Positions 61,435-64,000 of a stretch of 64,000 nucleotides of DNA are shown piece by piece. A program made the translations under genes and the position numbers. Under the pieces are notes generated by a model that was given only the letters and a program-made list of their open reading frames with translations, made no database searches and was not told the DNA's origin. Location: NCBI GenBank assembly GCA_028716975.1, contig JAQUOU010000019.1, positions 1 through 64,000 of the forward strand. Direction: 5' to 3'. Position 1 is the stretch's first letter, and each line of letters begins with the position of its first letter. This DNA comes from Methylobacter sp. (lineage in GTDB: Bacteria; Pseudomonadota; Gammaproteobacteria; Methylococcales; Methylomonadaceae).

Positions 61435-61713
61435 TTATTTGTCTTCCTTAATATCCTGCTTGATATCACCGTAGCCCTTCTGGGTTTTGCCGACATTCTT
61501 CTGGACCTTACCTTCCATTTCCATTTGTTTGTCGCCTATCACTTTGCCGGTGACTTCCTTGACTTTACCTTTGCCTTCCTCAACCCGACCTTCTACTTGA
61601 TCTTTATTCATATTGGAGTCTTCCTTGCTCTCTTCGGCATAAACGCCAACTGAGGCAATCGCCAAAAGAATGAAAGCTAATAAACCGGTGAGCTTTATAG
61701 TGTTACTTTTCAT
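61435..61713 (-). CDS. CsbD family protein with signal peptide
   Basis: A 92-residue protein with a signal peptide (about 1-26, LLAFILLAIASVGVYAEE), then a CsbD-like domain (NMNKDQVEGRVEEGKGKVKE and YGDIKQDIKEDK). CsbD proteins are small, charged, probably disordered stress proteins induced in stationary phase. The signal means this copy acts outside the cytoplasm. A good Shine-Dalgarno (AGGAAA) precedes the ATG. It is followed by hairpins at 61336-61401. Confidence 0.9.
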   Translation of the reverse strand: MKSNTIKLTGLLAFILLAIASVGVYAEESKEDSNMNKDQVEGRVEEGKGKVKEVTGKVIGDKQMEMEGKVQKNVGKTQKGYGDIKQDIKEDK

Positions 61714-61799: not shown

Positions 61800-61988
61800 T
61801 TACTTGTTTTTCTTAATATTATCCTTAATGTCATCTTTAAGATCACCAAATCCTGTTTGGAGTTTACCGACATTTTTTTGGAGATTTCCTTCTATTTCCA
61901 ACGCATCGTCGTCCAAAATCACACCGGCTGCTTCCTTAATTTTACCCGTGACGGTTTCCATTTTGCCTTTTACTTGATCGGTATTCAT
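61800..61988 (-). CDS. CsbD family protein
   Basis: A 62-residue CsbD-like protein without a signal: MNTDQVKGKMETVTGKIKE, GNLQKNVGKLQTGFGDLKDD. It closely resembles the mature part of the neighbouring 92-residue protein, pointing to a tandem duplication in which one copy gained (or lost) a signal peptide. The Shine-Dalgarno CAGGAG is well placed. Confidence 0.93.
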   Translation of the reverse strand: MNTDQVKGKMETVTGKIKEAAGVILDDDALEIEGNLQKNVGKLQTGFGDLKDDIKDNIKKNK

Positions 61989-62775
61989 GTTTCGCTCCTG
62001 ATTATTAGGTAGTTATGACTCAATAGTCATAACCAAAGCCTGGAAACGATATACTCCCACGCTCAATTTTGATAATACCCTTAAGGTTAAATAAAGTTCG
62101 TTCGATAGCGAACATAGAGTAAGGATTTCTTAAAAGATTAAGAGGGGTCTGAGTTATAGAGGCACTGAACTGTTCTCTTACGCCTCACAGCTAGGAAATG
62201 GTTTAATTAACCAGGACAGGCTACCAAGGCTTGCTATGCCCGGACTGTTACAGCATATTAAATTTCAACTTAACCCGTCTTTTTCAACCCGTTTTACACT
62301 GGTGAAAACTTCACATCTTTCAAGTGTATCTCTTCACTGACATCCAGCTTAACTATCCGTACATTAAAGACAGTTTTAGTGTTTCGACTTAGCCGTCTAT
62401 AAACGAGGCTGGATTGCCCTTCATCGATTTGATTTTAAAGGGAATAACGCGAGATTTATTTCAGGTAAAGGGGAAGCAATGACTTGTAAAACAGCGTCCA
62501 ATATTTTCCACTCAGCTTTAGATTTGCCCGCCTAAGGAAACAAAATAAACCATTTAATAGGGATTTCCCCTGATAAATTTGGATGCTGTTAGCCGGCAAA
62601 AATTGACACTGATTGGTAATTCAGAAGGAGGGATGATTGATGTAATTTATGTTGAAAAATTAAATGACTATTCCCACCATTATTCGAGACGCTCTGGCGG
62701 TTTGGAATACAAGGTGTCCTTGGCAGTATACCGACGCAGAGCGAGGGAACGATAAAAACATTTTAGGAAACCCTT
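61989..62775. other. Long intergenic region, no gene seen
   Basis: A 787-bp A+T-rich gap between the divergent csbD-like gene and the heme-oxygenase-like gene. Both promoters should lie here. The ORF that overlaps its right part on the minus strand is antisense to the enzyme gene and not supported. I found no repeat or RNA motif. Confidence 0.45.
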
Positions 62776-63495
62776 ATGAAAACTAATTCGCCAAAAGCGG
62801 CATTTTCCGGATTCGATACAACGGGGCTTTATATTAAGCCAGAGTGGCTTCAGCAACTTGGCAATACCCGTTTTCTGACACGCTGTCAGAACGGCCGGAT
62901 CAGCAGGGACGAGTTGGCCACTTTTATTCAACAACACCAGATGTATTCGCGCTGTTTTACGCGCTTTCTTGCAGCATTGCTGGCTAATATCGAGGATGAT
63001 GACCATCGCCTGGCGCTGACTCAAAATTTGTTTGATGAAATGGGCTTGGGCGATGCCGGTAATCTGCCCCATTCCAAGCTTTACCGTCACATGATGGAAA
63101 GCATGAGGCTGATTCCCTGCATAATCCCCTTACCCTCGACCCAGCGTCTGGTAGATACGATGTGGGAGTGTTGTCACTCGCCCAATTACATGGTGGGGTT
63201 GGAGGCTTTGTGCCTGGGCGCAGAAGGGATAGTTCCCTATATTTATCAATGGATAGTCGATGGTTTCCTTGCGGCGGGCGACTCACTGGATAACTTGCAG
63301 TTTTTTACGCTGCATATTCAATGCGATGACGGGCATGCCGAAACCATGAAAGACATTATCGCCTGGGAACTCCAAAAAGCCCCCTCCGCATTGCTCGATT
63401 TAAATTACGGGGCCGAAAAAATGATTCAGGCGAGAGTCGGATTTTTTGAAGGTTTATCGGCTGGCTGCCCTGCTCCTAATCACTATGCGGTTTAA
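62776..63495 (+). CDS. Heme-oxygenase-like diiron (HDO/TenA-fold) protein
   Basis: A 239-residue all-helical protein of the iron-containing redox enzyme / HDO superfamily (PF14518-like, related to CADD and PqqC). Candidate metal ligands are H54 (QQHQMYSR), E88 (FDEMGLGD), H99 (LPHSKLYRH), E150 (LGAEGIVPYIY), H180, D184 and H187 (HIQCDDGHAE), the full set expected for a diiron oxidase. Reactions in this superfamily include C-C bond cleavage, N-oxygenation and alkene formation, so the substrate is open. The Shine-Dalgarno AGGAAA is good. An unknown gene follows after 109 bp and may be a partner. Confidence 0.85.
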   Translation: MKTNSPKAAFSGFDTTGLYIKPEWLQQLGNTRFLTRCQNGRISRDELATFIQQHQMYSRCFTRFLAALLANIEDDDHRLALTQNLFDEMGLGDAGNLPHSKLYRHMMESMRLIPCIIPLPSTQRLVDTMWECCHSPNYMVGLEALCLGAEGIVPYIYQWIVDGFLAAGDSLDNLQFFTLHIQCDDGHAETMKDIIAWELQKAPSALLDLNYGAEKMIQARVGFFEGLSAGCPAPNHYAV

Positions 63496-63604
63496 GCCAT
63501 GAAAACCCGCTTGAAAACGTGCCGATGCTGCAAAACAGGGGCAGATTGGCTCTTCGCGTGGAAGCGCAATAAAGCTGGGTATTTGCCAGGAAAGTAGCCC
63601 CGAG

Positions 63605-64000
63605 ATGACCATGCAGACTAACGATAACAAAACATCAGCAAGACTTTGGGTGCATCGGTTGTTTGAACAAAGCAGCGCCTCGTTAAAAGCTACTCCAGGT
63701 AACACCTCTTATGCAAAACGCTATCAAACGAGTCATGCTTTAGCAGGGCCAAGCCCTTTCAGCGCCTTGTTTGCGGGTGAAAATAAACACCAACCCGAGA
63801 GAGAAACCGATAAACACCAAGTTCAGCAGTGTTTTGAAGAAGATGTATCCTTACAAGAAATCAGTCCCCATACTAGCGAAATCTTTCACGCGAGTGAAGC
63901 CAATAATTTACAGGCAGCCGTTAACGGAATGGAGAAAAAGGGGACTGGAAGCTTAAACGCCCGGTTCACCGTACTTAACAGTTATGCCGAAACGCCTGAT
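63605..64000 (+). CDS. Unknown protein, cut by the window edge
   Basis: An open frame of 132 codons from ATG 63605 (or 63611) to the right edge without a stop. The visible part is hydrophilic, rich in Ser, Ala, His and Gln (KTSARLWVHRLFEQSSAS; EISPHTSEIFHASEANN), with no signal or membrane segment, and looks disordered. AGGAAAG lies ten bases upstream. It follows the heme-oxygenase-like gene on the same strand and may be co-transcribed. The family is not recognised. Confidence 0.6.
   Translation, partial: MTMQTNDNKTSARLWVHRLFEQSSASLKATPGNTSYAKRYQTSHALAGPSPFSALFAGENKHQPERETDKHQVQQCFEEDVSLQEISPHTSEIFHASEANNLQAAVNGMEKKGTGSLNARFTVLNSYAETPD

Follow-up and report, generated by a model that had tools for sequence, protein, structure and literature searches.

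The right edge of the analysed window, a stretch of 64,000 bases that makes up bases 1-64000 of the 71,214-base contig C19, carries a gene for a 239-residue heme-oxygenase-like protein. A second open reading frame begins 109 bp downstream, at position 63605, and runs off the window. A preliminary description of this DNA had recognised both genes, and the open reading frames corroborate it, as does a match of the first protein to PF14518 (Table 1). It had also remarked that no thiamin, PQQ or folate genes lie nearby, and indeed none is found among the genes scanned in 56,000-71,214. The source genome (G000) is a 4.28 Mb draft, available as a single assembly of 69 contigs with a completeness of 100 and a contamination of 0.28. 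The right-hand 7.2 kb of C19 beyond the window was examined as locus L002.

Extending the sequence rightwards, as had been suggested, changes the picture of the downstream gene, which had been described as unknown and hydrophilic. The window shows only its N-terminal head. In full, the gene on C19 codes for 473 residues: after a variable head of about 110 residues come FAD_binding_6 and NAD_binding_1 domains and, at the C-terminus, Fer2 ([2Fe-2S]), the make-up of an FAD/NAD(P)H/[2Fe-2S] reductase. Next to it lies a gene for a 337-residue protein, here called PPOX-globin, which has a PNPOx domain and matches bacterial globin slightly below cut-off. In longer homologues of the reductase the head looks FHA-like by eye.

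Further features flank these genes on both sides. A gene for a CsbD-like stress protein (PF05532) lies on the minus strand at window positions 61435-61713, and a second CsbD-like stretch, recognised by eye, stands beside it on the same strand at 61800-61989. At C19:66499-66719 (L002:5500-5720) short repeats can be made out by eye, where a motif around GACAAGCTCACCACGAACGG recurs in both direct and inverted orientation.

Table 1 Features at the right end of the window and just beyond it. HDO, heme-oxygenase-like dimetal oxidase; G194 and G643, genomes with the HDO loci L046 and L073, respectively.
Feature	Position	Strand	Basis
HDO (PF14518), 239 aa, predicted ligands E88, H99, E150, H180, D184 and H187	62776..63495	+	Open reading frame, Pfam, alignment, AlphaFold2 model
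Putative remnant of the cupin start, ATG AAA ACC (MKT, as in the G194 cupin)	63499..63507	+	Same place as the start of the L046 cupin
Putative remnant of the cupin's final 20 codons and stop, ENVPMLQNRGRLALRVEAQ-stop	63513..63572	+	Alignment to the G194 and G643 cupin ends
Reductase head (473-aa gene, running on to C19:65027)	63605..64000	+	Contig open reading frame, domain scan
PPOX-globin gene, 337 aa, outside the window	C19:65068-66081		Follows the reductase gene

Family, ligands and fold of the HDO

The first protein matches PF14518 with E=2e-20 and 73.8 bits, compared with a Pfam cut-off of 28.9, and lies barely above the cut-off of TENA_THI-4. Its best curated subfamily in NCBIfam is TIGR04305 (CADD; E=2e-13), where 50.4 bits fall far short of a cut-off of 200. 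TIGR04306 (TenA) and TIGR02111 (PqqC) reach 13.3 and 12.4 bits against cut-offs of 130 and 240, and the protein is likewise far under the cut-off for BesC. These sequence matches support the view that the gene encodes a true, uncharacterised HDO, which by curated cut-offs is not a TenA, PqqC or CADD enzyme. The proposal of an uncharacterised diiron oxidase had been coupled to a search with the PF14518 and CADD models, and a close match to TenA, PqqC or CADD was to speak against it. It holds: PF14518 is matched over its cut-off, TIGR04305 far below its own, and no close match to any of the three is seen by the curated cut-offs.

How many residues could bind the two metal ions? Seven diiron ligands had been put forward, of which six stand. 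E88, H99, E150, H180 and H187 are identical in all 24 aligned homologues, and D184 is so in 23, with a gap in the remaining one. The seventh, H54, is variable, its position being occupied by H in 14, Q in 9 and Y in 1 of the 24. As judged by the alignment, the HDO carries the canonical 3-His/3-carboxylate set: six ligands, not seven. In SznF-type HDO-cupin enzymes a seventh ligand is contributed by an extra glutamate on an auxiliary helix. In the alignment of the present HDO with its homologues only two glutamates are invariant and there is no third, but residue 87, a D in the window HDO, is E in 21 of the 23 others.

The AlphaFold2 model of the protein (pLDDT 88, pTM 0.85) matches solved structures over nearly its full length: CADD with a Z score of 25.0 (rmsd 2.4 over 205 residues), followed by HrmI (23.6), FlcD (22.0), UndA (21.2) and BesC (20.8). 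PqqC and TenA come close behind (Z 20.8), and since their scores are similar to those of HDOs, function is not decided by the fold alone. SznF is not among the 50 structure matches listed for the model, an absence that does not speak for another fold.

Relatives of the HDO and their neighbouring genes

A search of genome contigs with the single protein yields no relative of the HDO; an alignment-based search yields 23 loci. The named relatives comprise 23 genome contigs, plasmids and G643, and none was found in viral contigs or phages. Of the named relatives that share this HDO, the Methylococcales MAG STB_122 is nearest; it belongs to the same family and probably corresponds to G194. Among sampled genomes the HDO occurs in 3 of 251 from the order (E<=1e-10), 3 of 369 from the class (1e-15) and 3 of 237 from the family (1e-10), and in the phylum sample (1 of 398; 1e-12) only in the window genome itself.

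Which genes accompany the HDO? In 13 of the 30 HDO loci examined, a small cupin either follows it as a separate gene (L046, L073, L051, L053, L057 and L047, the last from a Bdellovibrionaceae MAG) or is fused to its C-terminus (L060, L063, L064, L065, L066, L044 and L045). The fusion is assigned by Pfam for L060, L064 and L066, and by a cupin match inside the HDO reading frame for the others. In eight loci, which include two from one species, a class II aldolase takes the place of the cupin (L008:8968-11464, L048, L050, L052, L054-L056 and L058), and an AurF-like diiron oxygenase is also present in L008, L048, L049, L052 and L056. A further five have a class III aminotransferase in the cupin's place, assigned by Pfam for L009 and L067 and by length and clade only for L061, L062 and L068. 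The aminotransferase is fused to the HDO in L009:8914-10914 and L067:1929-3098, and probably in the other three; hosts are a Pantoea plasmid and Xenorhabdus, along with Photorhabdus by length and clade. Gene calls in high-GC loci were scored by composition, and some start codons are uncertain.

Clusters from Burkholderia and Variovorax belong to the same HDO family, the protein WP_347469886.1 from B. stagnalis being 41% identical to the window HDO. There the HDO is followed by the class II aldolase and in Burkholderia also by the AurF-like diiron oxygenase. These clusters contain acyl-carrier/ketosynthase genes, and no cupin was found in them.

In an HDO tree of 29 rows, the window protein groups with those of G194, G643 and L047 (support 97/93), and in all three of these clade-mates a cupin stands directly after the HDO. 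The closest curated relatives of this cupin are 5-aminosalicylate and gentisate 1,2-dioxygenases, far under cut-off, and its best solved relative is a gentisate dioxygenase (1.5e-19). By tree and alignment, the window HDO thus belongs to a rare clade marked by a small gentisate-dioxygenase-like cupin behind the HDO. Behind the cupin lies a gene X, in G194 at L046:8220-9953 (577 aa) and in G643 at L073:2-385, where it is cut by the contig end. For gene X of G194, Pfam gives nothing notable (best E=0.056) and NCBIfam nothing at 1e-6. The C-terminal part of gene X, which only the G194 copy shows, bears a distant similarity to the PPOX portion of the PPOX-globin protein (E=2e-6 in a two-sequence comparison), a likeness that may be due to a functional link and not to chance. 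In titles and abstracts of open-licence papers on HDOs with class II aldolase, cupin, diazotase or 3-amino-4-hydroxybenzoic acid, nothing on this HDO-cupin group was found.

The gene content of the relatives' clusters weakly points to nitrogen-bearing aromatic or amino-acid substrates. L047 has genes for 3-dehydroquinate synthase II and 2-amino-3,7-dideoxyheptulosonate synthase of the 3-amino-4-hydroxybenzoate type, with matches to the product-specific models BagC/FevH and BagB/FevI below cut-off. A ligase resembling the 3-aminoavenalumate diazotase AvaA6 occurs in three of the 13 cupin-bearing loci, with AvaA6 as best match at 526 bits in L047 (cut-off 975), 272 in L060 and 364 in L063; one of the three, L047, also has the 3-amino-4-hydroxybenzoate-route genes. 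The row at L047:2-6362 reads 3-dehydroquinate synthase II, ADH synthase, amidohydrolase, two AMP-binding ligases (one of them AvaA6-like), HDO and cupin. L057 has the aldolase and a benzoate-CoA-ligase-like gene. Neither G000 nor G194 has a 3-dehydroquinate synthase II, and a close diazotase-like ligase is absent from both, the best match being a generic ligase of 26% identity in G000 only. With neither of the two in these genomes, the substrate must come from elsewhere.

The intergenic gap and the downstream gene pair

The 109-base gap after the HDO holds, at 63499, the ATGAAAACC with which the cupin of G194 starts, and positions 63513-63572 read ENVPMLQNRGRLALRVEAQ-stop, the corresponding ends being ENAPMLQNMGRLAIREEAK-stop for the G194 cupin and ENAPMLQNMGMLALREEVA-stop for that of G643. 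This stump is identical to the cupin end of G194 in 43 of 60 bases and to that of G643 in 45 of 60. The two intact ends agree with each other in 42 of 60, so the divergence of the stump is not above that between intact cupins. The stump has substitutions of its own against both (e.g. M to R, E to V). Its local scores of 38 (G194) and 60 (G643) exceed the maxima of 32 and 33 reached by 2000 dinucleotide shuffles per cupin (0 of 2000 in each case reach the score). A mononucleotide-shuffle test agrees, and 30 is the top score among 569 other 109-base pieces taken from the window. Elsewhere in G000 no cupin homologue is found at E<=0.01 by the same search that yields two in G194. As far as the alignments tell, most of a cupin gene is deleted here: an internal loss of about 125 codons has left the start codon and the final 20 codons. 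A 32-codon open reading frame in the gap was considered as a precursor peptide and rejected, as its start is the former start codon of the cupin, from which it runs on into the cupin tail in the wrong frame.

Does the reductase belong to the HDO? Together the two had been proposed to form a pathway, with the reservation that a neighbour mostly found without the oxidase would argue against it, and this is what the genomes reveal. Orthologues of the PPOX-globin protein, defined by an identity of at least 45% over about 280 residues or more, occur at full length in 18 of 201 genomes of the order, the window genome included; split or partial copies in G131, G052 and G111 were left out of the count. 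A reductase homologue adjoins the gene in 16 of the 17 other orthologue loci. With G131 and G052 added, 19 loci were examined, and none has an HDO match (0/17 among the orthologue loci). In turn, G194 and G643, which do bear the HDO, show matches of no more than 27-31% to PPOX-globin and 25-30% to the reductase, and no orthologues. Since the pair is kept without the HDO and HDO relatives do without the pair, these are two separate modules that meet, among the genomes searched, only here. The reductase gene is thus probably a neighbour of the HDO and not its partner, as far as gene distribution can tell.

The reductase and PPOX-globin genes lie together at C19:63605-66081 (L002:2606-5082); the loci compared in relatives, 16 of 17 with the pair, are L025-L041. 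In G131, of the same genus, the PPOX-globin gene is split into two overlapping frames (L042:3025-3962) with no reductase match beside it. Upstream of the reductase, no region beyond the gene's own start is conserved in relatives. No terminator-like site was found in the 109-bp gap, so HDO and reductase may be co-transcribed. The pair is perhaps related to O2 or NO; a search of open-licence papers found nothing on it.

Origin and possible role of the HDO

How did this arrangement come about? The HDO is probably the surviving half of an uncharacterised HDO-cupin module whose cupin was lost by internal deletion. We favour this reading because the predicted ligands and fold are intact and a cupin is adjacent in the three nearest relatives, because the stump lies in the right place, order and strand in a genome with no second cupin homologue, and because the downstream reductase pair is independent of the HDO.

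Alternatively, the reductase could be a dedicated redox partner of the HDO, as in the MboA-MboB pair, and feed it electrons for repeated turnovers. HDOs require reducing equivalents, and the two genes share a strand across a short gap with no terminator-like site. The reductase also has the cofactor architecture of MboB as described for mangotoxin alkyne formation (PMC13185094), where a 3-His/3-carboxylate HDO likewise stands beside an NAD(P)H/flavin/[2Fe-2S] reductase gene in what is presented as possibly the first dedicated HDO-redox partner pair. In contrast to MboB, however, this reductase is a neighbour conserved independently of the HDO, which accompanies PPOX-globin in 16 of 17 loci, none of them with an HDO; the nearest HDO relatives in the family, G194 and G643, have no orthologue of it, and no ATP-grasp ligase is seen among the flanking genes scanned. 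As the adjacency is found only in the window genome and is explained by a deletion, we regard such a pair as unlikely.

The stump itself could in principle stem from an assembly error or local misassembly, the living strain then having an intact HDO-cupin pair, and the genome is known from a single draft of 69 contigs. Yet the assembly is complete and barely contaminated by the above measures, no piece of the cupin lies elsewhere in it, and the stump's own substitutions are as expected of a decaying or already unselected end, which makes an artefact very improbable. Hardly credible at all is that the HDO is a CADD-type self-sacrificing para-aminobenzoate synthase. CADD is its closest fold and best curated match, and the para-aminobenzoate synthases CADD and NePabS have the fold and ligand set in common with it. 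The score is nevertheless far under the curated cut-off, and the sacrificed residues, Tyr27 and Lys152 in CADD according to a 2026 review (PMC13108848), are missing: they align with L34 and I160, in columns that are hydrophobic in all 24 homologues (L/I/F and I/V/L/F).

Under the favoured reading of a module reduced to its HDO, the enzyme would bind two irons, activate O2 as a peroxo-diiron species and oxidise a small substrate. The relatives' clusters faintly suggest an amine- or amino-acid-derived molecule as the most likely substrate, perhaps an aminohydroxybenzoate. In intact modules a mononuclear-iron cupin would then oxidise or rearrange the product of the HDO, a second step that should be absent from the window genome. 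The HDO may here make the intermediate only, act on another substrate, or be a young relic. More speculatively, HDO and gentisate-type cupin could form an unrecognised two-step nitrogen-oxidising module that delivers an N-oxidised product or nitrous acid to a diazotase-like ligase, a proposal we consider unlikely.

The HDO itself is, by sequence comparison, without sign of decay or relaxed selection and appears still constrained. With G643 as third sequence, lineage-specific residues number 14 in G000 and 13 in G194 over 229 sites, and the two HDOs differ by a dN of 0.152 and a dS of 0.814 (NG86). The protein departs from columns of at least 90% conservation at four places, none of them a ligand, and at three of the four G194 shares the residue of the window protein. 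With the HDO constrained and the stump no more diverged than intact cupins, the cupin was lost recently or the HDO is useful alone; in an orphan long dead, the absence of relaxed selection would be surprising.

The 2026 review counts only about a dozen HDOs whose reaction is known and sets SznF apart from the other characterised ones by its cupin domain (PMC13108848). As described, an HDO domain and a mononuclear-iron cupin domain act together in SznF-type enzymes (streptozotocin), ChmM included; relatives of the window HDO have the cupin either encoded directly behind the HDO or fused to its C-terminus. SznF homologues such as ChmM, as reported for chalkophomycin (PMC10849742), have kept the cupin and lost the HDO ligands. 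The window genome is the mirror image, with the HDO kept and its cupin partner deleted to a stump. Unlike the SznF type, the relatives' cupin resembles gentisate/aminosalicylate dioxygenases, and a search of solved structures with a fused relative brings up no chain of SznF at E<=10.

What could be learned from this locus? A gene beside an orphan enzyme may adjoin it owing to the loss of something in between, which calls for caution. If the nitrogen-oxidising reading were true, the strain would be a natural cupin-deletion mutant that reveals the product of the HDO by itself. Partnerships of HDO and cupin of a second kind, in separate and fused form, would define a group of clusters that could be searched for new chemistry.
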